In this document: piece after piece, positions 4,378-24,070 of the stretch | Position numbering within the stretch: position 1 is the first letter of the stretch | Layout: each line of letters begins with the position of its first letter | Source: an uncultured delta proteobacterium | GTDB taxonomy: Bacteria; Desulfobacterota; Desulfobulbia; Desulfobulbales; Desulfurivibrionaceae | Assembly (NCBI GenBank): GCA_903869265.1 | Contig: CAIPYE010000017.1 | Coordinates: 372,001-436,000 of the forward strand | DNA: 64,000 nt | Direction of reading: 5' to 3' | Program-made: the position numbers and the translations under genes | The notes under the pieces: generated by a model | What the model saw: the letters and a program-made list of their open reading frames with translations, nothing else | Database searches by the model: none | What the model was told of the DNA's origin: nothing

Positions 4378-4386
4378 CCTGAAACC

Positions 4387-4441
4387 GTTGTGTCACTGGC
4401 ATTGTCAGTGCGTTGCAGCATGGGACACCGGGCCTCTATTC
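4387..4441. repeat. Imperfect direct repeat, copy A
   Basis: Starting ten bases after the GHKL stop codon is a 55-base segment that matches a segment at 5953-6008. Shared blocks in the same order and almost the same spacing are GTTGTGT, ATTGTCAGT, GTTGC and CGGGCCTCTATTC, at least 36 identical positions with one single-base length difference. The two copies bracket the membrane-HAD gene. Confidence 0.65.
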
Positions 4442-4519
4442 GTCGCCCGCATAGATCAATTCTGCTTTTAAGTTTTTGTAAACCGTTCTGTGGGTGAAGG
4501 GTTTCTGTAAAAATTTAAC

Positions 4520-5881
4520 TTAAAGACTAAAAACTCTCAGTTGCTTGAATATTTCAACCCAGTTTTTAACTCTCGCAATATTATTCGGCATCTCAAAGTT
4601 TTTATTGTAAGGATGTTCAATTAAAAATACAAAGTCGCACAGCATGCTTAGTTTTATTGCCTTTTCTGGGTCATCTTCTATGAAATATTGAATCTGGCTT
4701 TTTGAGGAAGAGAAACGGCAAGCATTTTTTCTTCCAAATGATATATTTTTATTTTCAACTGTTAATTTGTCATATTTCAAGTTATGTTTCTTTAGCCATA
4801 ATTTTGTAACTTGATTTATTAGTTTATTTTTGTTTGTACAGTATAAATAGTAAAATATAATTTTTTCTTTATTTCTAAAATAGAAACTCAAATCCATCTC
4901 GTCAATAAATGTAAGAATTTCTTTTTTCCATTCCAGCCAAATGCTCCTATTCTTCTTATGTTCAGTTTTTTTAGTAATCGGCCATGCTCTCTCTGTGTAA
5001 ATCCATACGATTTTTCCTAGCGAAGTTGAAAGCTTCTCCAATTGAGAAGGCGCGTCAGGGTCTAAAGGCATTTGTGTCCAATAGCGAGGGTCATTGAAAA
5101 TTTCCTCCTCGTCCTCTTTTGTAATCTGTAAGCAAGCCTCATGTACAGGAATATGTGTTATTTTGTCAGGATGAATTGTGATATTTTTTTTGTCGAAGAG
5201 CATTTTGCAAAAATGATCTCTATGCTTATTTAAAACACCATCTATGTCTACGCCTACTTTGTTGGTAACCAAATAATCATTTTCCCTTTTTCTAGAGTCC
5301 GTTTTAAAAAATAAAAAATGGAGTATGAAAAACAGTATTGCTACAGTGCAAACAGAATATATATTTTTATTTAGTTGTATGTGCGCAAAATCATTTATTA
5401 GAAATAATCCAACAATTAAATATCCACAGTCAATTATAGAAAAAACCCATATTACTGGCCTAAAACTTGTATCTTCGTAGTCTGGGATATATATGCTGTG
5501 TGGTAGAGTTCTAATGCTTATTTTCTGTAGCTGAGATAATCCAGATTTATAATAAAAATATTTTCTTATGCCATTTACACTTCTTGCATATAGTAATGAA
5601 TCATGACGCAAGCTTACAAGGTATCTACTTATAAATATTCCAAATAATGGAAGTATCAAAAAAATAAACCCAAAAATTAAGTTTGAATATAGTTTTAGGT
5701 CTGGACTTATTTCTTTGTTAGCAAGCAACAATGGAAGTATTGCAGCTCCAAGAGGGATTGGGACAGCCATCAAAACAGCATAATATCTGAAAAAACTTGA
5801 GATAGTATTAATGGTATTAAAATGAGCATTTGCTATCTGTTCATATTCTTTAAGTAGGTACTCATCAAATTTGTTTTGCAT
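4520..5881 (-). CDS. Four-helix membrane protein with C-terminal HAD-type (5'-nucleotidase-like) domain
   Basis: This is a protein of about 453 residues from ATG 5881; a TTG at 5899 is in frame but gives only six extra residues. Four hydrophobic segments lie at about 35-54, 68-86, 143-162 and 175-192, followed by a soluble domain. That domain begins with VGVDIDGVLNKHRDHF, a HAD motif I with Asp at about 212 and 214, and ends with IEDDPEKAIKLS, resembling the late acidic HAD motif. This resembles 5'(3')-deoxyribonucleotidase-like HAD enzymes fused to a membrane module. The gene is very AT-rich compared with the tns genes, suggesting transfer. It is flanked by two direct repeats and transcribed against the GHKL operon. 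A role as a membrane effector acting on nucleotides is a guess from architecture and context. Confidence 0.6.
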   Translation of the reverse strand: MQNKFDEYLLKEYEQIANAHFNTINTISSFFRYYAVLMAVPIPLGAAILPLLLANKEISPDLKLYSNLIFGFIFLILPLFGIFISRYLVSLRHDSLLYARSVNGIRKYFYYKSGLSQLQKISIRTLPHSIYIPDYEDTSFRPVIWVFSIIDCGYLIVGLFLINDFAHIQLNKNIYSVCTVAILFFILHFLFFKTDSRKRENDYLVTNKVGVDIDGVLNKHRDHFCKMLFDKKNITIHPDKITHIPVHEACLQITKEDEEEIFNDPRYWTQMPLDPDAPSQLEKLSTSLGKIVWIYTERAWPITKKTEHKKNRSIWLEWKKEILTFIDEMDLSFYFRNKEKIIFYYLYCTNKNKLINQVTKLWLKKHNLKYDKLTVENKNISFGRKNACRFSSSKSQIQYFIEDDPEKAIKLSMLCDFVFLIEHPYNKNFEMPNNIARVKNWVEIFKQLRVFSL

Positions 5882-5952
5882 GATGGATAGTCCGATCAAG
5901 AATTGTAGTCATTGTCTTTTGGACTTTTTTCCAAAAGAAGGTCACGTCTTCG

Positions 5953-6008
5953 GTTGTGTTGCCAGTATTGTCAGTAAGTTGCCACCTCTGGTATTCGGGC
6001 CTCTATTC
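5953..6008. repeat. Imperfect direct repeat, copy B
   Basis: This copy of the segment at 4387-4441 lies just upstream of the membrane-HAD gene and past the 3' end of the ImmA/IrrE gene. It is followed immediately by GAAAAATAAAGTTAAC (6011-6026), which shares 11 bases with the TnsB-site-like repeats at the transposon left end. Confidence 0.65.
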
Positions 6009-6021
6009 CCGAAAAATAAAG

Positions 6022-6828
6022 TTAACTTTCTGAGATCACCCATAAAATGGTTAAGATAGTCGGATAATTCCCGAGCCGAATCGATTGTTCGTAAACCTCG
6101 AACCCTCGTCTTTCCCTCATCCATGGAAACCACGCTTCATTCGGAACTCTGACCATTTTTGCAGATACCTTCCTCCCACGGAATACCTCGCAGGCCTCAC
6201 TTTCCAGATGAAGCGGGTGATGTTTCTCAATGCCTGGAATGGATGAATACTCCTTTCCTTTCCGCCACCAGCAGACTATTCCGTTCCTGGAAAAAATAGC
6301 CATACAGTCTTCTTTTGAAATTTGTATGAATTTAACTGCGGCGGCGGTCAACGACACATTATATGCGCTGGAGAGTTCCTTGATGATCTCAAGAGATGGC
6401 GTGGCCGATCTGAATTCCTTGCTTGCGAGGCGAGTGGGTATGAGCAATTCGGAGGCAAAAGCATTCGCCTCGATTTCCATTGGGCTTCCCTGGTAGCCGC
6501 CGATGTCGTCCTCCGAACAAAATTTAAGCTGGGTCTCTTCTGAGTGCATTTCCCAATGACCCATCTCATGGGCGATTGCGAAGCGTTTTCTGCCGGCCTC
6601 GGGTATGTCTTTGCGGACTCTTATGATACCCTTGTTGCCTTTCCGGATCAGATAGGCCTCCGATCCGCTTAACGCACCCTCCCTGACCAGAACATTCCGG
6701 TCCATTGAGATATCCTCAAGGCGTATTTCTTCAGGCCTGGTGATAGCATATTCCCTGATGAGCTTGTCCGCCAACCTCCTGGCCCTGGTTTCGTCGGCCT
6801 TGATGGGGTCATTCGAAAACATCGCCAT
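6022..6828 (-). CDS. ImmA/IrrE-family metallo-endopeptidase
   Basis: A protein of about 268 residues with a zinc-metallopeptidase motif HEMGH at about residue 88 and a downstream EIEANAFASELLIP segment that supplies the third ligand and is typical of ImmA/IrrE proteins. Members cleave repressors or regulators, for example ImmA acting on the ICEBs1 repressor. Possible starts are GTG 6831, ATG 6828 and ATG 6822; all overlap the 3' end of the upstream gene, which points to translational coupling. It is the last gene of an operon with a sigma factor and an unknown acidic protein. A likely job is proteolysis of a partner, perhaps the 146-residue protein, to release sigma activity. That pairing is inference from gene order. 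Confidence 0.8.
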   Translation of the reverse strand: MAMFSNDPIKADETRARRLADKLIREYAITRPEEIRLEDISMDRNVLVREGALSGSEAYLIRKGNKGIIRVRKDIPEAGRKRFAIAHEMGHWEMHSEETQLKFCSEDDIGGYQGSPMEIEANAFASELLIPTRLASKEFRSATPSLEIIKELSSAYNVSLTAAAVKFIQISKEDCMAIFSRNGIVCWWRKGKEYSSIPGIEKHHPLHLESEACEVFRGRKVSAKMVRVPNEAWFPWMRERRGFEVYEQSIRLGNYPTILTILWVISES

Positions 6829-7249
6829 CACTTTCGAGTATCATCAAATCTTCCAAGATCGAAGCCATGTCCGCTTCGTTGGCCCCCTCAAGTTTTCTGA
6901 AATACACCGAGGCAAGTTTCGGCTGTGATTGGGTTAATCCATTGAGTATTTCCAAAATCGCTTCTTTGACATTTGCCTTTTCATCGATGTACTTTTTGAT
7001 TTCCGTTAGCCCACCAAGACGATGTCTCTTTTCCTTGGCGGCTTCGAGTCGTCTTCCCGCCAACTTTTTGGAGATCATGAGGTTCACATCGGAAATCATT
7101 TGATCGACGTCGATGCCTTCTTTTCTGAGACCTTCTCTTATCTCGGCGATCGGAAGATTTTCTATGTCTTCCTCTTCCTCGGAATTGGTAAGCAGTCCGT
7201 GCAAACTTTCCAGTACGTCGGAATATTTTTCAGGGCTGGACCTTTTCAT
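6809..7249 (-). CDS. Acidic helical protein of unknown function between sigma factor and ImmA/IrrE
   Basis: A predicted 146-residue soluble protein rich in Glu, Lys and Leu with several likely amphipathic helices. It has no recognisable catalytic motif, signal peptide or membrane segment. Its ATG overlaps the stop of the sigma factor gene (7246-7249), and its 3' end overlaps the start of the peptidase gene, so all three are made together. Position suggests an anti-sigma factor or a proteolysis target, but the sequence itself does not show this. Confidence 0.65.
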   Translation of the reverse strand: MKRSSPEKYSDVLESLHGLLTNSEEEEDIENLPIAEIREGLRKEGIDVDQMISDVNLMISKKLAGRRLEAAKEKRHRLGGLTEIKKYIDEKANVKEAILEILNGLTQSQPKLASVYFRKLEGANEADMASILEDLMILESDGDVFE

Positions 7250-7887
7250 TTTTTTCCCTCTCCATTCTTAATTTCCTGAAATGCTTTGAGCCGCCTTTGA
7301 AGCTGCTTTTTCAGATTGTCGAACTCTTTTACTTTTATGCCCATACTCGCGGCAATGTCCGCTCTTTTCTTATCCCCTTCTGTGATGCGTTCAAGGATTG
7401 TTTGGAGCAGGGGCGTATCGGCAATGAATTCGTAAAATTTCCAAAAGAAATCTTCGCTCAAACGTTCTCGTTCCCTATCAAGCAAGATCTCTTCCGGGCC
7501 GGAGTTTGGGCAGGAAACATTATCCCAAAATTCGGCTGTCTTCCCATCGCTGTTAGGTCTTCCTGACAGGACGGCTTCCCTGAAGAAGTGCCGATTCTCC
7601 CAACCGTCGATCAAGTGGCTGATCTCGCTGTCAATTACACTGATCAAATGTTTGAAGAGATTTTCTTGGGAATGGGGATCCCATGCCCTATCGCCAGTCA
7701 AGATTTTTTCAATGCTTATGTGCACTACGTCTTTGGCTTCAATTCCGCTTGGGGCAGGCCCGCCGAGAATGCCCTGCCAGAAGAGTTTCCTCATTTTCCC
7801 AAAGGCATACCGTGTCAGCCTTGGAATGCTCTCGCCCCAAGGGTGACTGGCCATCAAATTTAACACTTCATCTGAAACCTCTGTCAT
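7246..7887 (-). CDS. Sigma-70/ECF-like RNA polymerase sigma factor
   Basis: The 213-residue protein has a sigma region 2-like segment with AKDVVHISIEKILTGDRAWDP at about 50-70 followed by a helical stretch, and a region 4-like helix-turn-helix near the C-terminus (GDKKRADIAASMGIKVKEF, about 170-188). Length and layout fit the ECF group. The start ATG 7887 has an AGGGAG ribosome site. It is the first gene of an operon with the unknown 146-residue protein and the ImmA/IrrE peptidase, an arrangement suggesting a self-contained regulatory module. What it transcribes is unknown; the promoter region upstream (7888-8134) also serves the small gene on the other strand. Confidence 0.65.
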   Translation of the reverse strand: MTEVSDEVLNLMASHPWGESIPRLTRYAFGKMRKLFWQGILGGPAPSGIEAKDVVHISIEKILTGDRAWDPHSQENLFKHLISVIDSEISHLIDGWENRHFFREAVLSGRPNSDGKTAEFWDNVSCPNSGPEEILLDRERERLSEDFFWKFYEFIADTPLLQTILERITEGDKKRADIAASMGIKVKEFDNLKKQLQRRLKAFQEIKNGEGKK

Positions 7888-8134
7888 GGGACTCCCTTTA
7901 AATATATGCCGCTCCGGACAGGGAAATTGCCGTTCGGGACGGAAAATCAGGCTTCATAGTTGAAACTAAAACAATAAGACACATTGGCAAAGAACAACCA
8001 AGAGGTCAATCGAATAAAGCCCCCAAGCTGACCGGTTACTGAATAGACGATCCGCAAAAAAAAATAATCCCGGCGGCAAATTTTAGAAGCAGCCCGGCAA
8101 AAGAACATAAGAAGAAAATTTTAAGTGAAAGGAG
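7888..8134. promoter_or_regulatory. Divergent region between sigma operon and small gene/tns operon
   Basis: The 247 bases lie between genes pointing away from each other. Two related motifs, GGACAGGGAAATT (near 7916) and GGGACGGAAAATC (near 7936), are spaced about two helical turns apart and might be sigma or operator sites. No TGT-led sequence with repeats like those at the 24403 end is visible, so I do not place the transposon right end here. Confidence 0.3.
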
Positions 8135-8146
8135 GTGATGGCAAAG

Positions 8147-8320
8147 ATGGCGAAGAATCCCCCAGTCGGAGATGGCCACCGGATCGGCGCGGTAAAAGAC
8201 CGGTCCCAGACCTACAATCCGCAAAACGATCGGTGGGTAAAGCGGGATACCGGGACAGGACAGTTTATTGACCAGAAAGCGGACGATAAGCCCTTCAAAG
8301 GTGTGCGCAAGGAAAAGTAA
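8147..8320 (+). CDS. Small conserved-looking hypothetical protein upstream of tnsA
   Basis: A 57-residue basic protein beginning MAKNPPVGDGHRIGAVKDRS. ATG 8147 is preferred because a strong AAGGAGGTG (8129-8137) sits at ideal distance; GTG 8135 and ATG 8138 overlap the ribosome site. It has no membrane segment or signal peptide. The sequence style resembles small proteins of unknown role seen beside mobile or defence genes, but I cannot name a family. A GC-rich hairpin follows its stop, so it may be a separate transcript from tnsA. Confidence 0.6.
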   Translation: MAKNPPVGDGHRIGAVKDRSQTYNPQNDRWVKRDTGTGQFIDQKADDKPFKGVRKEK

Positions 8321-8328
8321 CAGTGTGG

Positions 8329-8357
8329 CGGGCGAGTCTTCCGGGAGGGCTCGCCCG
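8329..8357 (+). terminator. Hairpin after small gene
   Basis: CGGGCGAG (8329-8336) pairs with CTCGCCCG (8350-8357) and is followed by TTTCTAATT. The stem is strong but the T-run is short, so it may be a weak intrinsic terminator or an attenuator ahead of tnsA. Confidence 0.45.
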
Positions 8358-8425
8358 TTTCTAATTCGCCGCCGCTCAGCCAAATTCCCGTCTCGGGAGC
8401 CGCTCCCCCAACAAAAGGAATCGGT

Positions 8426-9256
8426 ATGCCACGTCGCAAGATAACCAGCGCGGATAGAAAGCTTAAGCAAGGCCGCGGTCAGGGGCATGGTGAAAAATAC
8501 AAACCATTCTTGACGGTCCGCGAAGTCCCTTCGCGCGGGCTCTCCCACCGAATCAAGGGGTGGACGACAAGGCGCGTTCACCACTTCCTCTCGAATCTCG
8601 AGAAGAATTACTTCTACCTGCTTGACTGGTCCTCTCTCGTCGTCGACATCCGCGAACAGTTCCCCCTGCCGATCGAGGACACCATGATGATCTCCGAGCG
8701 GCTCGGCGTCAGGCATCCCACAAACCCAAAAACCAAAGAATCCACGATCATGACCACCGACTTTCTTGTCGACCTTCTCTCCGAGGAAAGAACCGTCATG
8801 GTGGCCCGATCCGTGAAGATGAGCCAGGATCTCGGCAGCAAGCGGGTCCTGGAAAAGTTGGAGATAGAGCGGACCTACTGGGCAGAGCGGAAAGTTGATT
8901 GGGGGATCGTCACGGAATTGGATATTCCAAAGGCCATGGCTGAGTATGTCGAATGGGTCCACTCATCCGCAGACATTAGAAATTTGCCAGGCCTCACGCC
9001 TCAGATTATCTCTCAGGCCGAGGAGGCCTTGTACGGCCTGATCAACGAAAACCCACGGGAGTCTTTGGCGCATGCCGCTCTTGCGATCGACCACGCTCTG
9101 GGGCTGAATGCGGGTTCTGGCCTGTGGGTCGTCAGGCACCTCATTGCATCTGGACGGTGGACGGTGGACATGACAAAAGCGGTCGCAACCGACAAGCCCC
9201 TGCGTGTCGCAAGAGTGGCCGGCGCGATGATAATCAAGCGGGGGCAGAGTGCATGA
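8426..9256 (+). CDS. tnsA: TnsA endonuclease subunit of Tn7-type transposase
   Basis: The 276-residue protein matches Tn7 TnsA in length and layout: an N-terminal GRGQGHG motif (16-22), an HRIKGWTTRRVHHFLSNLE stretch, DIREQFPL (74-81), and a helical C-terminal part. The restriction-enzyme-like catalytic set is present: Glu59 in SNLE, Asp112 in TTDFLV and Lys131 in ARSVK, corresponding to Tn7 Glu63, Asp114 and Lys132. TnsA cuts the 5' ends of the element so that, with TnsB, transposition is cut-and-paste. Its stop overlaps the tnsB start (ATGA). Confidence 0.95.
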   Translation: MPRRKITSADRKLKQGRGQGHGEKYKPFLTVREVPSRGLSHRIKGWTTRRVHHFLSNLEKNYFYLLDWSSLVVDIREQFPLPIEDTMMISERLGVRHPTNPKTKESTIMTTDFLVDLLSEERTVMVARSVKMSQDLGSKRVLEKLEIERTYWAERKVDWGIVTELDIPKAMAEYVEWVHSSADIRNLPGLTPQIISQAEEALYGLINENPRESLAHAALAIDHALGLNAGSGLWVVRHLIASGRWTVDMTKAVATDKPLRVARVAGAMIIKRGQSA

Positions 9257-11466
9257 ATCGCCTCCTTGCTATCAATACCCTGATCGAATGGGTGCCGGTG
9301 GAGGGAGACGCCACGCAGCGCCTGGAAAGAGTGCTCTGGATGGACAACGCCGGCGAGCAGGTCGTTGTTGTTTCGGTTTCCGATGCTGACTCGCTTCCAT
9401 TTCCCGTTTGGAAACGAGGTTCGGAGCTGGAGGCGGCAATCGCGGGCGGCCAAGCCTTCCGCCGCATGGTCGATCCCTTCGCGCAGCTCGCCATGCCGGA
9501 TCCGGCTTTTCTCCACAAGCACAAGGACCGGATGGAGAGGGCCTGGGAGCTCATCCGTGACTTGGTGGCGGTTGAGCCGGGGATTTACCTGGAGGAACAG
9601 AGGGGACCTTTGGTCCGGAAGGCAGCGGAACGATCCAAGGTCGATCCGAAAGAGGTCTACAGGAAGCTCAAACGCTTCTGGCGCGGAGGGAAGATCAAGC
9701 ACGCCCTGCTTCCGGCGTACAAAAACTGCGGAGGCCCCGGGAAGGAACGCCTCATCACGGAGTCCCGCCTTGGCCAGCCCAAAAGGGGCAGGCCGCGCAA
9801 GATCCTCCAACTCGACCCGGAGTATGTAGGCGTTAACGTCGACGAAGAACTTCATAGGATCTTCAGGATCTCCATCGACCTCTATTACAACACCAAAGAG
9901 GGAAATCCACTTCGGCGCGCCTATGATCTCATGATCGACAAGCACTTCAACCTCGGCTACCGGAACGAGGGCGGAGTCAGTGTCCCGGTCCTACCCCCTG
10001 CCTCCCAGCTCCCCTCCTTTCCGCAATTCCGCTATTGGCACCTCAAGGAACGGGATCTGGCCCATTCGATCGTCTCGAGGCGAGGAGAAAAAAGATATTT
10101 CTTGAAAAGCCGACCCATACTGGGCAACTCGACCCAGATGGCCTTCGGCCCGGGGTCCATTTTCCAAATCGACGCCACTATCGGGGATGTCTACCTGGTC
10201 AGCACCCTCAACCGCAACTGGATCATCGGCAGGCCCGTGATCTATTTCGTCGTCGATGTGTTCAGTCGAATGGTAGCGGGGATTTATGTGGGACTTGAGG
10301 GGCCGAGCTGGGTAGGGGCGATGATGGCGCTCGCCAACGCTACTACCGACAAGGTCTCCTTCTGCTCGGAGTATGACGTTGAAATTGACTCCGAGGCTTG
10401 GCCGTGTCGGTATCTTCCCGAGATGATCCTCGGGGACCGGGGAGAGCTTTTGGGCCTTGATTCCGATAGCCTTGCCGACTCCCTGGATATCCGCGTTGCC
10501 AATTGCCCTCCTTACCGGGCGGACTGGAAAGGGATTGTGGAGCAGATGTTCCGGCGGGCGAACTTGAAAAGCATCCACTGGCTTCCTGGGGCTGTGAGGA
10601 AACGCGAAAGAGGAGACCCCGACCACCGCCTGGATGCTACCCTTGATCTTCGCCAGTTCACCAAAATCATTATTCTTACGGTGATTAAATATAATCTCCA
10701 TCATCGGGTCGAGGACTATCCGCTGGACAGGGACATGATTGCCGACGACGTGCCTACGATCCCCGTCAATCTGTGGGAATGGGGCATTGGCAACCGGGGC
10801 GGCCATCTGCGGGAGAAGAGCCCGGAAACCATCCGGCTGAATCTAATGCCGACCGGATCGGCAACCGTTACCCCCAAGGGGATTCGGTTTCAGGGCGTCC
10901 ATTATACGACAGCCCGTGCACTCCGGGAGCAATGGTACGTCCGTGCGCGAAGCGAGGGAACCTGGACCGTCCCGGTCTCGTACGACCCTCGCAATATGGA
11001 AGTCATCTATCTGCGCGCAGGCGACGGCAGCAGTTTCGATCCCTGCACTCTTTTGCCGGACGAGGAACGATTCAATGGCGTCATGCTGGAAGAGGTGCTC
11101 GATTTTTTTGCTCTGAACAAGTTGAAGTCCCAGCTGCATGAAGGCAGGCGGCTGCAGTCCGATGCTGCGTTGCGGGCACAGGTTGCGGCCATAAAAGCAG
11201 AGGCCGCTAAGATGAAGGAGGAATCTGGCCCCCAGAAACAGAGCAACAATCAGCGACTGAAAGGGATTCGCGACAATCGAGCCGAGGAAAAGAAGCACAA
11301 TCGACAGGGCGAGGCGTTCGACTTGCGGGCCGAACGGCACTGCGGTACGTCTGGAACCTTGCTTCCTCTAGCCAAAGGGGAAACGAGTGCCAAGGCCTCA
11401 TCCTCGGCCAAGCGAAAGGACTTCCTCGACATACTAAAAGGCGATGGCGAGGAGGAACAGCCATGA
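9253..11466 (+). CDS. tnsB: TnsB DDE transposase subunit
   Basis: A 737-residue DDE/rve transposase that binds the element ends and performs 3' cleavage and strand transfer. Catalytic residues are Asp307 (QIDAT), Asp395 (LGDRGE) and Glu430 (GIVEQMFRR). The spacings of 88 and 35 residues equal those of Tn7 TnsB. An N-terminal helix-turn-helix region (about 60-200, including KRGRPRK) would bind the end repeats, and the charged C-terminal tail would contact TnsC. ATG 9253 overlaps the tnsA stop and is preferred to longer in-frame extensions that would overlap tnsA. The tnsC start overlaps its stop. Confidence 0.95.
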   Translation: MNRLLAINTLIEWVPVEGDATQRLERVLWMDNAGEQVVVVSVSDADSLPFPVWKRGSELEAAIAGGQAFRRMVDPFAQLAMPDPAFLHKHKDRMERAWELIRDLVAVEPGIYLEEQRGPLVRKAAERSKVDPKEVYRKLKRFWRGGKIKHALLPAYKNCGGPGKERLITESRLGQPKRGRPRKILQLDPEYVGVNVDEELHRIFRISIDLYYNTKEGNPLRRAYDLMIDKHFNLGYRNEGGVSVPVLPPASQLPSFPQFRYWHLKERDLAHSIVSRRGEKRYFLKSRPILGNSTQMAFGPGSIFQIDATIGDVYLVSTLNRNWIIGRPVIYFVVDVFSRMVAGIYVGLEGPSWVGAMMALANATTDKVSFCSEYDVEIDSEAWPCRYLPEMILGDRGELLGLDSDSLADSLDIRVANCPPYRADWKGIVEQMFRRANLKSIHWLPGAVRKRERGDPDHRLDATLDLRQFTKIIILTVIKYNLHHRVEDYPLDRDMIADDVPTIPVNLWEWGIGNRGGHLREKSPETIRLNLMPTGSATVTPKGIRFQGVHYTTARALREQWYVRARSEGTWTVPVSYDPRNMEVIYLRAGDGSSFDPCTLLPDEERFNGVMLEEVLDFFALNKLKSQLHEGRRLQSDAALRAQVAAIKAEAAKMKEESGPQKQSNNQRLKGIRDNRAEEKKHNRQGEAFDLRAERHCGTSGTLLPLAKGETSAKASSSAKRKDFLDILKGDGEEEQP

Positions 11467-13187
11467 GAAAGGCGGGGGACCGGGAACTCGGGCATTTCCT
11501 TATCGGCAATAGGGTAAATGCCATTTACCAGGAGAGCGAAGAACCCCTCTATCGCCACAACTGCTTTATCGAATCGCTACCGCAGGAATTGTCTCCAGAG
11601 AAAGCCGGCAGCCTGTTGAGGCGGATGCCTGCCTATTCGGAAGCCGAGCGAACCCTTCCCGCGTTGCGCAGACTGAACGCAGTCCAGAGAATTCAAAATA
11701 TCGTCGTTCCTTTGCCAGAATACTTGGAGATAGAGCAGAAGTTCTCCCGGATGATCCGAAACGGGTATCTTGCGCGAAATCCTCTCTCGTCCGAGTGGAT
11801 CAGACAGATTCAGGCCGGCTTTCCAGACCTCGACTGGAACCGGGGCTCCTCCTATCCGTACACACCCACAATTCGGTCGACCGCGGCCGGATTCTCGATT
11901 ATCGGCGCCAGCGGGGTCGGGAAGTCGACGCTCATCGAGAGCATTCTTTCCCTCCTTCCCCAGGTCATTATCCATCGGGAGTACAACGGCTGCCCCTTCG
12001 ACCAGCAGCAATTGGTATGGCTCAAACTCGACTGTCCCTACGATGGGTCTCCGAGGGGTTTGTGCAGCAGCTTTTTCCATGCGATTGATCGGCTCCTGGG
12101 AACCCGCTACGCGGAAAAGTATGCCAACCAGAGACGGACCGCCAACGACCTAATGCCCATCATCGCCATAATCGCGGCAAACGTCGGGCTGGGCGTCCTG
12201 GTAATTGATGAGATCCAGCGCCTGAGGGGGGGCCACAAGGACAATTCAAACCTTCTGCTCAATTTCTTCGTCCAGCTGACCAACACCATCGGTGTGCCTG
12301 TCGTCCTTATGGGAACCTATAAGGCCTTTGGCCTGTTCACCAAGGAGTTCTCTCTGGCCCGAAGGACCACCGGGCAAGGCGACGTGCTCATGCACAACTT
12401 CGCCGAGGATCAAATTTGGGATTATTTTATCGAGCGTGTCTGGCGTTACCAGTGGACTGCGGTCCCGACTCCCCTGGAACAGCCGCTAAAGAAGGTGATC
12501 TATGAGGAGTCGCAGGGGATCTTGGACATCGCGACCAAGCTCTACATGCTGGCGCAATGGGAGGTGATCGGTTCAAAGGATGAAGCGGAAAGGATCACCC
12601 TGGCGATGATCAGGGTGCTCGCCCGGGAGAATCTTACCGCAGTTGCTCCGATTCTCAGAGCCCTTCGGGTGGGTGATTTGGAGGCGTTGAAGGATATCTC
12701 GGACATCGGCCTGCCCGGAAACCTGCTGCATGATCATTTTCGGAAAGCTCTAGGCCGGGTGCAACTACAGGGGACCTTGAACACTTTGCGAAACCAGGTT
12801 GCGGTAGCCGAGGCGGATGAAGAAGGCTTGGGGGAATCTCCCGAAGAGCAACTCGCCGCCCTAATCGTCCAAGCGGGATACGCCCCGGAAATCGCGGTAA
12901 GGAGCGCCCAGTCGGCCTGCCGCCGTTTCGCTGCCGAGACGGACATGCGGCTTGCCGGCAGTGAGGCCTTTCGCCTTGCCGCGGAAGAGACGGCTCTGAA
13001 AAAGGCGAACGTTGAGGAAGCCGCGAGCTCGCAGGAGAAGAAAAAAAGACTGAAGGTCGTTTCACTCAGCGGAGACCTGCGAGAGATCGTCGCAAAGGCC
13101 GCCAAAGAAACATCTCCTTACGATGCGTTGAAGGCAGCCGGAGTCATCAAGTCTGTAGAGGAATTCCTGGCTGCGGGAGCCCCATAA
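11463..13187 (+). CDS. tnsC: TnsC AAA+ ATPase transposition regulator
   Basis: The 574-residue protein has Walker A GASGVGKST (148-156) and Walker B VLVIDEIQ (about 244-252), followed by the sensor region of TnsC/TniB ATPases. It links the target selector (TnsD or TnsE) to the TnsAB transposase and mediates target choice and immunity. At this length, close to Tn7 TnsC (555), it has the N- and C-terminal extensions that contact TnsD and TnsA/TnsB, unlike the short TnsC of CRISPR-associated type V-K elements. It overlaps tnsB by four bases and is three bases from the next gene. Confidence 0.93.
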   Translation: MRKAGDRELGHFLIGNRVNAIYQESEEPLYRHNCFIESLPQELSPEKAGSLLRRMPAYSEAERTLPALRRLNAVQRIQNIVVPLPEYLEIEQKFSRMIRNGYLARNPLSSEWIRQIQAGFPDLDWNRGSSYPYTPTIRSTAAGFSIIGASGVGKSTLIESILSLLPQVIIHREYNGCPFDQQQLVWLKLDCPYDGSPRGLCSSFFHAIDRLLGTRYAEKYANQRRTANDLMPIIAIIAANVGLGVLVIDEIQRLRGGHKDNSNLLLNFFVQLTNTIGVPVVLMGTYKAFGLFTKEFSLARRTTGQGDVLMHNFAEDQIWDYFIERVWRYQWTAVPTPLEQPLKKVIYEESQGILDIATKLYMLAQWEVIGSKDEAERITLAMIRVLARENLTAVAPILRALRVGDLEALKDISDIGLPGNLLHDHFRKALGRVQLQGTLNTLRNQVAVAEADEEGLGESPEEQLAALIVQAGYAPEIAVRSAQSACRRFAAETDMRLAGSEAFRLAAEETALKKANVEEAASSQEKKKRLKVVSLSGDLREIVAKAAKETSPYDALKAAGVIKSVEEFLAAGAP

Positions 13188-13189
13188 CC

Positions 13190-15076
13190 ATGCTCGCCTT
13201 TTTTCCGGCATTACACCCCGACGAGATGCTCTACAGCGCCTGTGCCCGTTACCATCGAAGAAGCGGTAATCTGAGCATCAAAGCCACCATGAAGGATCTT
13301 TTCGGATCTACCACCGCCAGCGCAGTGGTAGATCTGCCAAATCGCCTGGATTGCCTGCGAAGGCAGCTCCCTGCCGGCACCCTCACCACAGTCGATCGCT
13401 TGATCAAGGAAAATACCCTCCTTCCGCTCTATAGCCCTTTCTTGCCAAGGAATCGAGTGGACAGGATAATCGCTTGGATGCAGGGCTCCACTCACGGGGG
13501 CGGCATCCACATGGCCATGGGTATCATGGCGAGCGGCGTTCCGGTACCCCGGCATCTCAGGTTCTGCCCAGAGTGTCTCGCCGCTGACGAGAGCCGGTAC
13601 GGGGAACCATACTGGCACAGAAGCCATCAGGCAGCCGGGGCCCTGCTTTGTCATAAACACGAAGTATGGCTTTGCGAAAGCGATGTCCCGACAGCCGCCC
13701 CCCAGAATAAGCACGCCTTCGTTGCCGCTCCCGTACCCAACGGGAAATACCTGCCGCAACCTTACGAGAGGTATTTTCTTCACTGCCGGGAAATAGCCCG
13801 TTCGGTGGCTTGGCTGCTCAGCCATCCGGAGACCGAAAGTCCCGGGCTTTTTTCCCTGCGGAAAAAGTACCTGCATCATCTTCGACAGATGGACCTTGCG
13901 AGCTATTCAGGTCGGGTGGCTCAACGTGAGCTTCTGGAGAGGTTTACCGCACATTACGGAGATTGCTTTTTGGAGCAAATCCACTGCCGCATAGACATCG
14001 ACTCTCAGGACAATTGGTTGAATAGCATTGTGCGCAAGCCACGCAAGGCGAGCCATCCTCTTCGCCACATCCTTTTGATCCACTTCCTTGGGAAAGGGAT
14101 TGAGGAATTTTTCTGTGCCGGCGTTCCAGAGAGCCGTCCCTTCGGAAGGGGCCCTTGGCCTTGCCTCAATCCTGCCGTATCCCATTACCGGCAGGCAGTT
14201 ATCCTCCGGTGCGTCATTACCAGGAATTGTGAAACGGGGGAGCCGGTCGGGCATTTTTACTGTTCATGTGGTTTCAGCTATGCCCGGACCGGCCCTGACC
14301 GGGAAAGAAGCGACAAGTTTCGAAGGGGAAAAATTCTTGAAGTAGGTCCGGTGTGGGAGGCGGAATTGATCCGTCTTGCGGAAAAGGAGGGGAGAAGTCT
14401 GAGGGCAACCGCCCGTGCCCTTGGCGTGGATGTGCGCACAGTAATTCGCCACCTGGCCCATCTGGCGGACTGCCGGCAGGAGGAAAATTTTGTCGAGGAT
14501 GGAAAATCGCTGATTGAGCGCCGCACGCGATGGCTCGCGCTTATAGCCAAGCATCCCAAAAAAGGACGGAAGGAACTTAGGACGCTGGGCCCAGCCGATT
14601 ATTGCTGGCTTTACCGCAATGATAGGGGATGGCTTTTCAAAAATCTCCCTCCGGCCAAGGCCAGGAAAGGGTCTGCCGGACGCCGAGTTGACTGGCCAGG
14701 CCGAGATCACGAGCTCGCAGCCCGGATCGGTCACGCCGCGCATGCCATCCGTTACGCACCCGGGAGACCCGTGCGCGTCACTTTAAGCGCCATCGGCAAA
14801 AAACTAGGTGCGCTCGCCTTATTGCAAAGGAATATCGACAAGCTCCCCGCAGCAAGAGCGAGTCTTGAAGGCGTTATCGAAACCAGGGCCGCCTTCGGGA
14901 TCAGGCGCGTGAGGGCTGCGGAGAGAGAACTCTTGCGGCGAGGAAAGTCATTGGAGACCTGGCGAATCGTTCGCGAAGCGCATCTTCGGCCCGGAAATCC
15001 CGCCAGCGTTGCGGCTGAGATCGAGCGGATAATTTATGCATTTGAAAAAGGGGTGATGCATGGATATGAAATTTAA
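13190..15076 (+). CDS. tnsD: TnsD/TniQ-family target-site selector
   Basis: The 628-residue protein has the TniQ N-terminal domain (FFPALHPDEMLYSACARYH) and its zinc-binding set, CPECL at about 125-130 followed by LCHKH about 35 residues later. A long C-terminal part holds several helix-turn-helix-like segments. Its length is much closer to Tn7 TnsD (508) than to the short TniQ proteins (about 300-400) that pair with CRISPR Cascade, so a sequence-specific attachment-site selector is the best reading. Which chromosomal gene it recognises is not visible, because the right-end flank is not in the window. It starts two bases after the tnsC stop. Confidence 0.88.
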   Translation: MLAFFPALHPDEMLYSACARYHRRSGNLSIKATMKDLFGSTTASAVVDLPNRLDCLRRQLPAGTLTTVDRLIKENTLLPLYSPFLPRNRVDRIIAWMQGSTHGGGIHMAMGIMASGVPVPRHLRFCPECLAADESRYGEPYWHRSHQAAGALLCHKHEVWLCESDVPTAAPQNKHAFVAAPVPNGKYLPQPYERYFLHCREIARSVAWLLSHPETESPGLFSLRKKYLHHLRQMDLASYSGRVAQRELLERFTAHYGDCFLEQIHCRIDIDSQDNWLNSIVRKPRKASHPLRHILLIHFLGKGIEEFFCAGVPESRPFGRGPWPCLNPAVSHYRQAVILRCVITRNCETGEPVGHFYCSCGFSYARTGPDRERSDKFRRGKILEVGPVWEAELIRLAEKEGRSLRATARALGVDVRTVIRHLAHLADCRQEENFVEDGKSLIERRTRWLALIAKHPKKGRKELRTLGPADYCWLYRNDRGWLFKNLPPAKARKGSAGRRVDWPGRDHELAARIGHAAHAIRYAPGRPVRVTLSAIGKKLGALALLQRNIDKLPAARASLEGVIETRAAFGIRRVRAAERELLRRGKSLETWRIVREAHLRPGNPASVAAEIERIIYAFEKGVMHGYEI

Positions 15077-16640
15077 GAATTGGCCTTTTGACAAGACCGA
15101 AGCCGTCTATCTCCACTGGCTTCGGTCGCCCTACCATGCGGGGCAACATAAACAGTGGCAGATGCAGGCAGTCTTCCGGCGGGAGAATGGCACGTTGCAC
15201 GACCTAGCCATGCCTTGGGGAGCACTGCCGGCCTTTCGTCTCGGCAGTGCTTATCGGGATGGTAAACCGACAGGGGCGAACCATTTGGGCACTCGGATGC
15301 AGATCCGGTTCTGTTCATCGCCGAAGGTGAGTATCTGCGATGCGATATCGGTGCCAAGGCAGTATGAACTGCGGACGAGGTTCAATCTCCAGGAGAAATG
15401 CGTGGTCATCTGGAATCGCGGGGAACGGATCGTGGTTCCCTGCCTGGAGGTGATTCGAGCCTATTTCGCTCCCAACAGGATGATGGTAGCCGAATTGCTG
15501 GGGCCGGATCTTTTCACGGATGTATGCACATCCACCCTGGCGGACGGCCAGGCGCATCTTAAGTTCTCGGAACGGGTCGCCATCGCCTCGCTGTCTATCG
15601 AAGTCGTCAAGAGGATGGCCGCGGTCCTTTTTGACGGGGAGTTTCGGGCTGCATGGAAGAAGGTCTGGGCCTCCGTTTCTAACGGCGGCGGGGAGAACAT
15701 GCGAAATGGGGAGTATGCGCATCCGCTTCATACCGAGCCGCCGGCCATCCCAGGCAGTAGCTGGGTGGTCAGGGGGATGAAAATCGAGAATACCATCCTG
15801 GTCCTGGAAATAAAACAGTTCAGTTCCGCTGTCAGACTGCCATTTTCCACCCTAACTTATGAACATCCTGGTTTCAGAATATATGAAGGTGGAAAAAAGG
15901 GGAACGGGAGAGGAAGGACCAAGGAGGAGCCGGGAGAGGCCGCCATCAATCCGGAGCCAAAGTCACCGAAAGAAATTACGTCTCCTTATGCTGTAAGAAT
16001 CGACTTCACCACTGCGGATTTTGCGCAGCGGATCGAGGTGGTCAAAGTCCAGGAGAGAGTAAACGAAAATGGTCAAGGCGAAGATCGCCAGGGAGGCGGA
16101 GGGGTACGTTTAGAGCACGTCTCTACAAAGGATGGGACTCTTTACGAGGAGGCAGGCTGCGGTGAGCTACCGTCAATTGAATTTGCCCCGTTCAAGTCTG
16201 AGAGCGATGTTTCGTTGGGCTTTCAAAAGTTATTTAAGGCTCTAGCCTACATCAAAGGGGCGAACCTGTCATTTTGCGAAGGGGAAGCCCCTGAAGGCTG
16301 CTGTCTTCCCAGGGTGCCTAAGATTTCCGGGATCCTGCGGCCGTATGTTCTGGTGGGAGTTTCGTTCTCAAACCGACGGTTTTTCATAGTGGAGGTCGAC
16401 GGAAGGGACGATCATGGGATTTCGACCCTTCTATTTATGATGCCGAGGCGCGGATCCATCACTGCCACCGCATATACCGAAAATCTGCTGAAAAAATGTA
16501 TTGCGGGAGGAGGGCATTGGGACAAGGGGGAACTAAGAACGCTTTTCAATGGAGGAAAGTACGAGCTTGTAAAGCACACAAAATCCTCTTTGGAAAAATG
16601 GGGTATGAGACTGTGGAGGGCAGGGCGGAGATTATTTTGA
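15060..16640 (+). CDS. tnsE: TnsE-like target selector
   Basis: The 526-residue protein is the fifth gene of the tns operon, overlaps tnsD by 17 bases, and is close in length to Tn7 TnsE (538). The N-terminus (HWLRSPYHAGQHKQWQMQAV) and the C-terminal stretch VLVGVSFSNRRFFIVEVDG resemble corresponding parts of TnsE, the central linker being variable and charged. In Tn7, TnsE directs insertion to replicating DNA such as conjugating plasmids through the sliding clamp and 3'-recessed ends. An AAAAGGGGTG ribosome site supports ATG 15060. Assignment relies on operon position plus recalled similarity; a profile search would settle it. Confidence 0.8.
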   Translation: MDMKFKNWPFDKTEAVYLHWLRSPYHAGQHKQWQMQAVFRRENGTLHDLAMPWGALPAFRLGSAYRDGKPTGANHLGTRMQIRFCSSPKVSICDAISVPRQYELRTRFNLQEKCVVIWNRGERIVVPCLEVIRAYFAPNRMMVAELLGPDLFTDVCTSTLADGQAHLKFSERVAIASLSIEVVKRMAAVLFDGEFRAAWKKVWASVSNGGGENMRNGEYAHPLHTEPPAIPGSSWVVRGMKIENTILVLEIKQFSSAVRLPFSTLTYEHPGFRIYEGGKKGNGRGRTKEEPGEAAINPEPKSPKEITSPYAVRIDFTTADFAQRIEVVKVQERVNENGQGEDRQGGGGVRLEHVSTKDGTLYEEAGCGELPSIEFAPFKSESDVSLGFQKLFKALAYIKGANLSFCEGEAPEGCCLPRVPKISGILRPYVLVGVSFSNRRFFIVEVDGRDDHGISTLLFMMPRRGSITATAYTENLLKKCIAGGGHWDKGELRTLFNGGKYELVKHTKSSLEKWGMRLWRAGRRLF

Positions 16641-17022
16641 CAGTTGGTTGCGACTCGCTCTCTTGAGGTCGTTGCAGGTTTTGCATTCCTATGGAACTTC
16701 TTTGAGGGGTTCACCTAGCTAGGCCAAGTTGCCGAGCGCATGGCGAGTTCACCAATGAGTTATCTGGGCAGATTGGCGGCATGCTTTAACTCCGTATTTT
16801 TTCGGTATTGTATCCCGTCAGGCGATGTGATAGCCTTGAAAAAGGTACTTTTCAGACTCGTGCTTTGTGGTTAGAGATATCCCCAACAGACCGTGGCCTT
16901 GATCAAGGAATTAGAACAAAGTCTGCGAACTGCTCAAGAAGTGGCCCCACTCGTTTGAACAACATCCTGCGATTTTTAAGTGGATTCTCTTCGGCAGCAT
17001 CACGGTGTAAGCCTCATCAGGT
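16641..17022. other. Intergenic region after tnsE without recognisable gene
   Basis: The 382 bases between tnsE and the resolvase fragment contain only short open frames without family resemblance. The last part, near 16980-17022, may be decayed resolvase coding sequence, because it runs directly into the readable remnant. Confidence 0.4.
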
Positions 17023-17262
17023 GTGTTTTTGCCCAGGCTCGAATGCGGCCGGAACGGCGGGGCACCCTACAAGATGACCGCCGCCAAACTCCGCCTGGCC
17101 ATGGCTGCCATGGGGCAGCCGGAGACCAATGTGGGCAGACTCTGCCGGGAATTGGGAATCACCCGGCAAACCCTTTACCGCCATGTGGCCCCCGATGGTA
17201 GCCTACGGACCGATGGGGAAAAACTCTTGGCCAGTCAGAAAAATCAAATCCACTTGAAATGA
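17023..17262 (+). pseudogene. Serine resolvase/invertase C-terminal remnant (Tn3-type)
   Basis: Only the C-terminal DNA-binding end of a serine recombinase remains: GRNGGAPYKMTAAKLRLA is the hinge and start of the Hin-type helix-turn-helix, followed by LCRELGITRQTLYRHV and the terminal DGSLRTDGEKLL. The catalytic domain, about 120-140 residues with the active-site serine, is absent, and upstream sequence does not continue in any frame. This marks an earlier insertion or recombination event between tnsE and the zinc cluster and may show that the cluster arrived with a Tn3-family unit. Confidence 0.75.
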
Positions 17263-17295
17263 CGAGGAGCCCAAAATAATATCCTCACCCGCAGA

Positions 17296-17312
17296 AATTT
17301 ATAGTATAAATT
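17296..17312. promoter_or_regulatory. Zur-like operator palindrome upstream of zinc cluster
   Basis: AATTTATA-G-TATAAATT is a perfect 17-base palindrome ending six bases before the first gene of the cluster. Its core TTATA-N-TATAA equals the core of proteobacterial Zur boxes. Repression by zinc-loaded Zur is therefore a reasonable inference; no zur gene lies in the window. Confidence 0.6.
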
Positions 17313-17318
17313 CAGGGT

Positions 17319-17750
17319 ATGTTGACACAATATGGCACATTCAGGAAGGTATTCCTTTTGGGATTTGCGCTCAGCCTGCTGGCGGCGACGCTGGTGGTGG
17401 TGTCCCCTGGCTTGCAAGCTCTCCATCTTTCCTCCTGCCACCACCATGGCGCGAACCACGGCTTTGCTGCCCTTCTCCATGACCATGATACACATGCCCA
17501 CCACAGCACTAAAAATTTCAAGTCTTCCAAAGATTCATTTTTTATTGCCCATAAGCATAGTTCTGAACACTGCCCTATTTGCCAGGCGCTGGCCTCACTG
17601 GCCCAGCACTTCACCGTACACGAAAAAATCGCTATTGCCCGGCCAACTCTAGCGACTGTTGCCGGGCCACCCGACCCTTGCCGACCCCTCCTCTCTCCTC
17701 CCATCAACTATTCGATCTCCCCACGCGCTCCCCCCTCCCTGCTGGCTTAA
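17319..17750 (+). CDS. His-rich exported protein with CxxC, DUF2946-like
   Basis: A 143-residue protein with an N-terminal hydrophobic signal or anchor (VFLLGFALSLLAATLVVV, about 11-28). It is followed by a His-rich stretch (CHHHGANHGF then HDHDTHAHH, about 40-65) and a HCPICQAL motif near 83-90. This layout is like the small DUF2946-type periplasmic proteins found in metal uptake or resistance clusters, suggesting zinc or copper binding. The first codon lies just behind the Zur-like palindrome; no strong ribosome site is seen, so the start is uncertain. The gene leads the zinc cluster. Confidence 0.6.
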   Translation: MLTQYGTFRKVFLLGFALSLLAATLVVVSPGLQALHLSSCHHHGANHGFAALLHDHDTHAHHSTKNFKSSKDSFFIAHKHSSEHCPICQALASLAQHFTVHEKIAIARPTLATVAGPPDPCRPLLSPPINYSISPRAPPSLLA

Positions 17751-17949
17751 CCCTTCATTCTTCTCGTACATAGTGACCTTTCCCAGCATTGGAAAAAACG
17801 GATTGCTTTGCCTGCCGTTGTTCTGCTCGGCGGGACTTTCCCGTATCTAACCGGTACCGGCGAGCAAGAAGGTAAACGTCGTTTTCACCGAATCGCATTA
17901 GGTATGGATGGGTTTTTAGCTACGCAACCTTTGCCAGAAGGAAAATTTC

Positions 17950-19335
17950 ATGAAAGCCAAAAAAATCATCGGCGCCTGCGCGTTTGCCGCGGCGCTCCGG
18001 GCACTGTCACCGGTTCCGGCTTGTGCCGTAACGGATGAAGATCTTTCTCAAATACGGCAATCCATCAAGAAGCTTGAGATGCAACACGCCGAAGATGCAA
18101 AGCGCATCAAGGAACTGGAACAGCGCGTGAAGGTTGCCGAGGCCAAGGCCCAAACCAGCCAAGCGTCGGCAAACGCAACTCCCGTTGTTGCAGATACCCA
18201 AACAACGGCATCAAGCGCACCAATCCCTGCGGCGGTGTCTGTGTCTGGACAAAGTGGTGCGCCCGCCTCGGCCGGCGCTTTCAATCCGGCCATCGGGGTA
18301 GTTCTTATGGGGACCTATGCCCATTTCAGCCATGATCCCGATAATGCCCCCGTCCCCGGCTTTGCGCTTGGAGACGAGGCCCGCAGTTTAGCCACCCAGG
18401 GATTTTCGCTCGGCGAGTCCGAGGTAAGCCTTAGCGCCAACATCGATCAAGCGCTTTACGGTCAGGTGGTTCTCAGCTTCCCGCGCGAAGGCGGTGCCAA
18501 TGTCGAAGAAGGATTTATTCAAACCACGAGTTTGCCTTGGGGCTTGACGGTCAAAGGTGGTCGCTTCTTCTCCGGCATCGGCTATCTCAACGAACAGCAT
18601 CAGCATGCCTGGGATTTTCTTGATGCGCCCTTGCCCTATCGGGCCATGCTCAACAACCAATTGGGGGATGACGGCGTACAGGTGCGTTGGACAGCTCCCA
18701 CCGAAACCTTTCTGCAATTCGGCGCCGAGAGTCTGCGCGGCGCCTCTTTCCCGGCCACGCCTACCCATGACGGCGCGGGCGCGCAAAGTGTCTTTGTCCG
18801 CGCCGGAGGCGATGTGAACGAGAGCAACTCGTGGCTGGCAAGTCTCGCCTATTATCACGCCGACGCCACGGATCTGGTGACGGGCATCGATAGTTTCACC
18901 GGTGCAACCCATCTCGGCATCGCGGGGCTGGTCTGGAAATGGGCGCCGAACGGCAATTCCGTTCAGCGCAGTTTGAAACTGCAAAGCGAGTTCTTTTTCA
19001 GGCGGCAGGACGGCACCTTCGATACGCTTGCCTATCGCGGCGACCAGACAGGTTTCTACGGTCAGGCCATCTACCAGTTCATGCCGCGCTGGAGCGTTGG
19101 CGCACGTTATGATCAGCTCTCGGCCAATGATGTGGGGGCGGATTTTGCGGGCACGACCCTGGACAATCTTGGCCATACACCGCACCGGTACAGCACCGTT
19201 TTGATGTACGACACCAGCGAGTTCGGACGCTTCCGCCTGCAATACAACTACGACGATTCCGCACTGCAAGCGGACCAGGGCGTGATGCTGAATTACACGG
19301 TCAGCCTCGGCGCCCATGGCGCTCATCAGTACTAA
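17950..19335 (+). CDS. Outer-membrane porin-like protein of zinc cluster
   Basis: The 461-residue protein has a signal peptide (cleavage likely after CAV or ACA, about residue 26), then a coiled-coil (about 30-75, repeating Lys/Glu heptads) and an Ala/Thr/Ser linker. A long beta-rich region with alternating hydrophobic residues follows, with aromatic residues near the C-terminus (ends HQY), as in outer-membrane barrels. It lies immediately before a ZnuA-like gene and probably admits or binds the metal at the outer membrane. A similar protein often precedes zinc uptake genes in proteobacteria. AAGGAAAA sits before the ATG. Confidence 0.65.
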   Translation: MKAKKIIGACAFAAALRALSPVPACAVTDEDLSQIRQSIKKLEMQHAEDAKRIKELEQRVKVAEAKAQTSQASANATPVVADTQTTASSAPIPAAVSVSGQSGAPASAGAFNPAIGVVLMGTYAHFSHDPDNAPVPGFALGDEARSLATQGFSLGESEVSLSANIDQALYGQVVLSFPREGGANVEEGFIQTTSLPWGLTVKGGRFFSGIGYLNEQHQHAWDFLDAPLPYRAMLNNQLGDDGVQVRWTAPTETFLQFGAESLRGASFPATPTHDGAGAQSVFVRAGGDVNESNSWLASLAYYHADATDLVTGIDSFTGATHLGIAGLVWKWAPNGNSVQRSLKLQSEFFFRRQDGTFDTLAYRGDQTGFYGQAIYQFMPRWSVGARYDQLSANDVGADFAGTTLDNLGHTPHRYSTVLMYDTSEFGRFRLQYNYDDSALQADQGVMLNYTVSLGAHGAHQY

Positions 19336-19354
19336 GCCAAAGGAGAAACACCCC

Positions 19355-20266
19355 ATGAACAAACTACTCATCGGCATTGCTTTGCTCAGCGCACTATTTT
19401 CCACTACGGTTCCGGCAAAGGCCGCGGTCAATATTTTTGCCTGCGAACCCGAATGGGGATCGCTCGCCACCGAGATCGGCGGCGATGCCGTTTCGGTTTA
19501 TGTCGCCTCGACCGGCCGGCAAGATCCGCATCAGATCCAGGCCCGGCCAAGCCTGATCGCCCGCGCCCGTACTGCCGACCTTGTATTCTGCACCGGCGCT
19601 GAGCTGGAAGTCGGCTGGATGCCTGTTGTTTTGCGTCAAGCCGCCAACGGAAAAATCCAGCCCGGCTCCCCCGGTTATCTGGAAGCCGCGAGCGTAGTGT
19701 CCATGAAGGAAATTCCACAACATCTTGACCGCGCCGAGGGCGACGTGCATGCGGCGGGCAACCCGCACATTCAAACCGATCCGCGCAACTTCCTGCCCGT
19801 GGCCGATGCCTTGGCAGCCCGTCTGGCTGAAATTGATCCGGCTCATGCCGCTCTCTACAAAGCCCGACACGATGCCTTCGTCGTCAAGTGGCGTGCGGCA
19901 ATCAAGAAATGGGAAACTGAAGCGGCGCCTCTTAAAGGCATGCCGATTGCCGTGCAGCATAAGAGCTGGGTTTATCTCCTCGACTGGTTGGGGCTCAAGG
20001 ATCTTGTGGCACTGGAGCCCAAACCCGGGGTGCCGCCGTCAAGCGGTTATCTGGCTGAGGTGCTGGCCAAGGTCAAGGCAAGCCCAGTCAAGATGACCAT
20101 CCGTGCGGCCTATGAAGATGACCGCCCTTCGCAATGGCTGAAGCAGAACGCGGGCGTGCCCGCGGTTGAACTGCCTTTCACGGTGGGTGGCAGTGACAGG
20201 GCCAAGGATCTGTTCGCCCTGTTTGACGAAACAATCGATCATCTAGTGAAAGGAGTTCGTCAATGA
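19355..20266 (+). CDS. Zinc/manganese ABC transporter substrate-binding protein (ZnuA-like)
   Basis: A 303-residue periplasmic cluster A-I binding protein. It has a signal peptide (LLIGIALLSALFSTTVPAKA) and the three expected metal-site regions: GRQDPHQIQARPS, GNPHIQTDP and VQHKSWVYLLDW, each carrying a candidate ligand His, plus an acidic AYEDD near the C-terminus. The His-rich loop of canonical ZnuA is absent. A strong AAGGAG supports ATG 19355. Its stop overlaps the permease start. Confidence 0.85.
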   Translation: MNKLLIGIALLSALFSTTVPAKAAVNIFACEPEWGSLATEIGGDAVSVYVASTGRQDPHQIQARPSLIARARTADLVFCTGAELEVGWMPVVLRQAANGKIQPGSPGYLEAASVVSMKEIPQHLDRAEGDVHAAGNPHIQTDPRNFLPVADALAARLAEIDPAHAALYKARHDAFVVKWRAAIKKWETEAAPLKGMPIAVQHKSWVYLLDWLGLKDLVALEPKPGVPPSSGYLAEVLAKVKASPVKMTIRAAYEDDRPSQWLKQNAGVPAVELPFTVGGSDRAKDLFALFDETIDHLVKGVRQ

Positions 20267-21039
20267 ATATGGCAAACTTTGACCTCACCATCCTGCTGCC
20301 GGCTCTGCTGGCCGGTCTGTTGATTCTGTCCACCCATGTGCCGCTGGGCCGGCAGGTGCTCACCCGCGGGATCGTGTTTATCGATCTTGCCTTGGCCCAA
20401 GTGGCAGGACTGGGAATCATCCTGATGGATACGCTGGGTTTTGAGCCGCATGGTTGGCGCGCGCAGGCAGCAGCCTGCGCGGCGGCGCTGCTTGGCGCTT
20501 TGCTCTTGACCTGGACACAAAAACGTTGGGGCGAAGTGCAGGAAGCGCTGGTGGGCACGCTTTTCGCCGCCGCGGCGTGCGCCGGGCTTTTGCTTCTCGC
20601 GCACAACCCCCACGGCGGCGAACACCTGCAGGATTTGCTGGGAGGTCAGATTCTCTGGACCTCGCCACGCGATCTGGTACCTGTAGTCGTGCTCTACGCT
20701 GCCATATTAACCATATGGTTCGGCTTCCGGCAACGGCTCGGTGATCTTGGCTTCTATCTGCTATTTGCCGTGACCGTCACCGCCTCAGTGCAGCTTGTCG
20801 GCATCTATCTCGTCTTCGCCAGTCTGATTGTTCCCGCCCTTGCGGTGCGAGGGATGCGGGAGGCGTTACAATTGCCGATGGGCTATGTCATCGGCGCTTT
20901 GGGCTACGCTGTGGGCCTGCTTTTTTCGGCGATGTTCGACTTGCCGACCGGTCCTGTCATCGTTTGTGTCCTTGTAGTGATGATGGCTTTAACGTGGATG
21001 GCGGACGCAAAATTGCGCCTAGTTCCGGATAAACCTTGA
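20263..21039 (+). CDS. Metal ABC transporter permease (ZnuB-like)
   Basis: The 258-residue, highly hydrophobic protein with about eight membrane segments belongs to the ABC-3 family of zinc, manganese and iron permeases (conserved GRQVLTRGIVFIDLALAQVAG near the N-terminus). Its ATG overlaps the stop of the binding-protein gene. No typical ZnuC ATPase follows; the next ATPase gene (21532) looks like a LolD/MacB-type protein paired with its own FtsX-type permease. The ATPase partner of this permease may therefore be elsewhere or shared. Confidence 0.85.
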   Translation: MNMANFDLTILLPALLAGLLILSTHVPLGRQVLTRGIVFIDLALAQVAGLGIILMDTLGFEPHGWRAQAAACAAALLGALLLTWTQKRWGEVQEALVGTLFAAAACAGLLLLAHNPHGGEHLQDLLGGQILWTSPRDLVPVVVLYAAILTIWFGFRQRLGDLGFYLLFAVTVTASVQLVGIYLVFASLIVPALAVRGMREALQLPMGYVIGALGYAVGLLFSAMFDLPTGPVIVCVLVVMMALTWMADAKLRLVPDKP

Positions 21040-21097
21040 GACAAGTCCGTGTTTACCCCTGTGTGCCTTAAAACACCATATCCCAAAGAGGAATCCC

Positions 21098-23492: not shown

Positions 23493-23514
23493 CAAAGAGG
23501 ATAAGGAGTTCACG

Positions 23515-23979: not shown

Positions 23980-24070
23980 GCCTTGAGAGAAGGGGTCGAC
24001 ATGTGATCACCGGCAACGGGAAGCCTCCCGAGTCTGGTGGAAAAAATACAAGATATGTGCTGGAGGTCTG

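Follow-up and report, generated by a model that had tools for sequence, protein, structure and literature searches.

Five open reading frames in the order of the Tn7 genes lie at positions 8,426 to 16,640 of the window, the whole 64,000-nucleotide stretch of DNA analysed here, and raise the question of what element they belong to, which site that element occupies, and whether the last of the five encodes a second target selector in addition to the first.

The tnsABCDE genes

All five tns frames are open in the window genome (G000) and follow the Tn7 order on the + strand. The first, tnsA (8426..9256), would encode an endonuclease of 276 aa in which E59, D112 and K131 align with the catalytic residues E63, D114 and K132 of Tn7 TnsA (1F1Z, 2.1e-46), and which matches the N- and C-terminal TnsA models of Pfam at 3.5e-18 and 3.3e-12. 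The putative DDE transposase gene tnsB (9253..11466; 737 aa) carries D307, D395 and E430 at a spacing of 88 and 35 residues together with a Pfam Mu-transposase C domain, and matches Tn7 TnsB (7PIK) at 2.4e-103; a GTG at 9124 is merely its mechanical first start, and the gene start was taken at 9253. The product of tnsC (11463..13187; 574 aa) is a predicted AAA+ regulator with a Walker A motif at residue 148, a Walker B motif at residue 245 and Pfam matches to AAA_22 and TniB, and it finds the Tn7 TnsC structures at 2e-65; the model for the TnsA-binding tail of TnsC (PF11426) had no match in the window genome, and none in any control genome either. The fourth gene, tnsD (13190..15076; 628 aa), combines a TniQ domain (Pfam, 2.9e-25) with a long, putatively target-binding C-terminal part (Pfam TnsD, 7.1e-105; 8GLU, 1.2e-30); among the 395 genomes sampled across the phylum, six contain a match above the cut-off of the Pfam TnsD model. 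For all four proteins the top PDB sequence matches are those of prototypic Tn7. The locus thus holds a TnsA and a TnsB with intact catalytic residues, an AAA+ TnsC and a TniQ/TnsD selector, as in the Tn7 family. A reading made from the sequence only had proposed a TnsABCDE operon with overlapping starts, the Glu-Asp-Lys set in TnsA, the Asp-Asp-Glu set of TnsB with its 88/35 spacing and a long TnsD/TniQ; the gene order, both active sites and the long selector were borne out, the profile searches recovered the TnsA, TnsB, TnsC and TniQ families, and overlaps were found at three of the four junctions (A/B, B/C and D/E), the exception being C/D, where 2 nt separate the genes.

Ends and attachment site of the transposon

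The five genes are part of a complete, divergent Tn7-family transposon at the canonical attTn7 site of a bacterium of the Desulfobulbales, formerly counted among the Deltaproteobacteria. The transposon is 25,183 bp long (C17:371221-396403, corresponding to window -779 to 24403), and the window begins within it: positions 1..24403 (+ strand) belong to the transposon, and its glmS-proximal R end lies 779 bases upstream (G000:C17:371221) and was read from the same contig. A span of 8426-16640, as the sequence-only reading had given, therefore holds for the operon and was rejected for the element, the ends of which map at -779 and 24403. Twenty-three nucleotides separate the stop codon of glmS (L002:17353-19197) from the TGT terminus of the R end, where an array of TnsB-like sites begins, spaced by 20 bp. 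The L end (24230..24403, - strand) contains TnsB-like sites at 24256 and 24379, with a degenerate one near 24300, and closes with ACA at 24401-24403. Both termini are flanked by GTAGA, at 24404..24408 and, upstream of the window, just before the R end, which constitutes a perfect 5-bp duplication. With up to two mismatches allowed, the analyzed 124 kb contain 10 copies of the motif AATAAAGTTGGNAA, every one of them at one of the two ends. TGT...ACA termini, a 5-bp duplication and, at either end, arrays of TnsB sites of roughly 20 bp are the anatomy of the Tn7 family, and the insertion lies just downstream of glmS in the fixed orientation. As Tn7 has been reported to insert approximately 20 bp downstream of the glmS stop codon and to duplicate 5 bp there (PMC2918618), the distance from glmS and the GTAGA at both termini establish glmS as the attachment gene, which had earlier been regarded as unknown for this TnsD. 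Rfam and tRNA scans returned no RNA target gene.

Two further features of the ends were observed. The R array of the window copy is doubled, with eight sites as against four in its relatives; a second TGTTCGCGG start with four further TnsB-like sites lies 150 bp inside the first (window -779 to -545; L002:19221-19455). This arrangement suggests stacked insertions or recombination, and may affect the function of the end. Beyond the L end, a small multidrug resistance (SMR) transporter gene (24499-24849) lies before the chromosomal reductase gene; it is missing at sites that lack the element, and may be a leftover of an older insertion.

The favored interpretation, to which a probability of roughly 93% is assigned, is that the 25.2-kb transposon at attTn7 belongs to the Tn7 family, is autonomous and probably still functions. 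According to this model, TnsA and TnsB would most likely cut the element out at its TGT...ACA ends, with TnsC linking the transposase to the target selector. TnsD would bind the conserved 3' end of glmS, directing insertion to a point about 23 nt past the stop codon with duplication of 5 bp, and TnsE would provide a second pathway that seeks out mobile elements and serves spread between cells.

TnsE and a proposed second pathway

The fifth gene, tnsE (15060..16640, + strand), encodes a highly divergent protein of 526 aa. The sequence-only reading had called it TnsE-like and proposed a TnsE profile as a check. The Pfam TnsE_C model (PF18623) gave 19.3 bits (E 0.0011), under its curated cut-off of 26.7, although this is the threshold of a single model, which a divergent member can miss. 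A hidden Markov model built from six annotated TnsEs of public plasmids, with the window protein left out, scored 59.8 bits on it as against 1.6 for the best of 500 shuffles, by which chance similarity was rejected. Profile-profile comparison with hhalign gave a probability of 98.1 (E 8e-14) over 381 columns, and on rerunning a score of 100.6; 60 shuffles of the columns did not exceed 24.3, and the reversed profile reached 19.9. The similarity covers most of the protein, the C-terminal domain included. A phmmer search against PDB chains returned no match, and in alignment the protein is approximately 16-18% identical to most enterobacterial TnsEs. By profile similarity, then, the 526-residue protein is a distant TnsE homolog.

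In a sample of 395 genomes of the phylum, scanned with a profile of all TnsEs including that of the window, TnsE was found in two, the window genome and G409, in which tnsABCDE lies directly beside glmS (L060). This agrees with the rarity in the group that had been supposed beforehand, as does the deltaproteobacterial character of the host with the name of a relative carrying the element, ‘Desulfobulbaceae bacterium UBA2273’. The pairing of TnsD and TnsE is itself unsurprising, as TnsE with a glmS-type TnsD is the usual Tn7 combination (PMC11406308).

Short derivatives of the element may bear on both pathways. An 887-bp derivative lies beside glmS in G010 (L024:3367-4253), flanked by the duplication GCAAC and with an extra internal L-like end; its sole cargo is a toxin-antitoxin pair resembling Phd/YefM-YafQ, a similarity that is weak in Pfam and falls short of the curated cut-offs. 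When the genus was searched by pattern, a single R array turned up outside the glmS site, that of a 669-bp derivative in G001 (G001:C10:28709-29377, within L089, G001:C10:20001-40000), which has the perfect duplication GCAGG and is flanked by a tyrosine integrase on one side and a MobA/MobL relaxase-helicase on the other. No TnsB, TnsD or TnsE match was found in the 81%-complete assembly of G001. This single insertion is into the kind of target that the TnsE pathway would be expected to choose.

It is conceivable that the 526-residue protein, though of TnsE ancestry, has another function, such as that of an accessory factor binding the target or the ends, and does not steer insertion to replicating mobile elements. 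Such a role would be consistent with how little identity it shares with most known TnsEs, and with the nearest relative among the proteins compared being an unannotated Azospirillum oryzae protein (23%) that is found at the same place in its operon, following a short TniQ. AlphaFold, applied to the full-length and C-terminal TnsE with three near-identical sequences or a single sequence as input, gave no usable structure (pLDDT 29 and 37). However, the extent of the similarity through the C-terminal domain, an operon position that is that of Tn7 tnsE, and the off-glmS derivative in a mobilizable element argue against this role, which is considered unlikely. A stronger form of the favored reading is more tentative, namely that a deep, little-described TnsE lineage still selects mobile elements in Desulfobulbales, and that sub-kilobase derivatives have been moved in trans via both pathways, the toxin-antitoxin derivative to glmS and the other to the mobilizable element; this is possible and on balance doubtful.

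Related sites, cargo and known Tn7 elements

Among the 17 genomes of the genus, the element is present in three: the window genome, G015 and G007. The latter two appear to correspond to contigs JAHJRQ010000015 and DDWZ01000016, respectively, that of G007 being the UBA2273 genome. In both the element occupies the same glmS site with the duplication GCAGC; in G007 it is split over two contigs, and its tnsD (L013:3112-4994) reads in two overlapping frames and is either broken or misassembled. The comparison of related genomes for an empty site, as earlier proposed, showed at least eight congeners with a glmS site free of Tn7 ends. In G008, G005, G013, G016, G011 and G006, the reductase that in the window lies past the L end comes immediately after glmS; the neighbors of glmS are different in G009, G012, G014 and G001, where the site is free of Tn7 ends, and G013 and G006 have a second glmS-bearing contig with a different neighbor. 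In the glmS tree, element-free G016 groups with G007 and G015 (support 100/99), and the window genome is placed elsewhere. As the duplications also differ (GTAGA versus GCAGC), more than one insertion, and at least two, is likely.

An alternative scenario, in which an element no longer mobile has been passed on vertically at glmS as a relic, its tns genes persisting without recent transposition, is regarded as quite unlikely. It would be consistent with the shared duplication of G007 and G015, the split tnsD of G007, and the divergence between G000 and G015 at fourfold sites, which is 11-24% in the tns genes, close to the 18-24% of chromosomal genes. However, the five frames are open in the window genome, its duplication is perfect and unlike that of the other two copies, G016 lacks the element despite grouping with G007 and G015, and the two short derivatives have perfect duplications of their own. 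Some copies may still have been inherited in common, the tns genes being about as divergent as the chromosome or slightly less so, and a probably functional transposon remains the preferred reading.

The cargo of this transposon has turned over. Between G000 and G015 the core (5995-16642) is 92% identical in nucleotide sequence, and the cargo on both sides differs. On the R side, low-G+C cargo in the window (1607..5899) encodes a radical-SAM-like protein, an HATPase protein and a 459-aa protein without a match; in this slot G015 instead has an Ssp-type defense operon (SspC, D, G, H and A), and G007 a PRTase-CE/ORC-CDC6-like pair. The L-side cargo of the window (16641..24229, + strand), comprising a ZnuA-type metal-binding protein, an ABC-3 permease, an ABC ATPase, a MacB/FtsX permease and a DUF3299 protein, differs from that of both congeners, G015 having a dGTPase-type defense gene and a kinase. 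The flanking slots are occupied by exchangeable defense and efflux cargo, and Tn7-like elements are well known to carry defense genes (PMC8649781). Adjoining tnsA, a three-gene module on the - strand (6022..7887) is kept in G000 and G015. It consists of a CapP-like M78 metallopeptidase (6022-6831; PADLOC capP, 2.6e-60; Pfam Peptidase_M78), a 146-aa protein (6809-7249) and a possible sigma-like protein (7246-7887), read as such by eye only. In a search of 97 genomes, G000 and G015 alone gave a match to the sigma-like protein; none came from G007, which has the element, and this counts against the module always accompanying it. The module is a possible regulator of cargo or transposition.

With prototypic Tn7 the element shares its gene order with tnsE last, the catalytic residues, the 5-bp duplication, a four-site R end and insertion just past glmS with tnsA towards glmS. 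It differs in its longer TnsD (628 aa versus approximately 500), in the approximately 9 kb of cargo between R end and tnsA, and in the doubled R array of the window copy. Its TnsB is 33-36% and its TnsE approximately 16-20% identical to those of E. coli and other Tn7-type elements. The closest TnsB (39%), TnsC (42%) and TnsE compared are those of the Azospirillum oryzae plasmid element (NZ_CP054617, L049), which has the same operon order but a short TniQ (311 aa) in place of the long TnsD and lies away from glmS. The glmS element of G409, in the same phylum, differs in that tnsA adjoins glmS without R-side cargo, and its TnsE is 19% identical to that of the window. Tn6022-type elements also carry a TnsE homolog but, by description, target comM via TniQ and TnsF, with tnsE far from the core genes (PMC10293859). 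The element is of a known kind on a distant branch, a new and divergent addition to the Tn7 family with an unusually diverged second target selector. With its ends, target site and insertion-free sites defined, it brings the complete two-pathway system of Tn7 to a group in which TnsE is rare, and supplies a TnsE far from the one studied, a review having noted that mechanistic information on TnsE is confined to prototypic Tn7 (PMC11406308). The three congeners, with their different cargo at one shared site, also offer a small natural series on the turnover of defense genes in Tn7 elements. Just after tnsE, at approximately 17050-17260, a resolvase-like remnant can be discerned by eye as the end of a Tn3-type resolvase.
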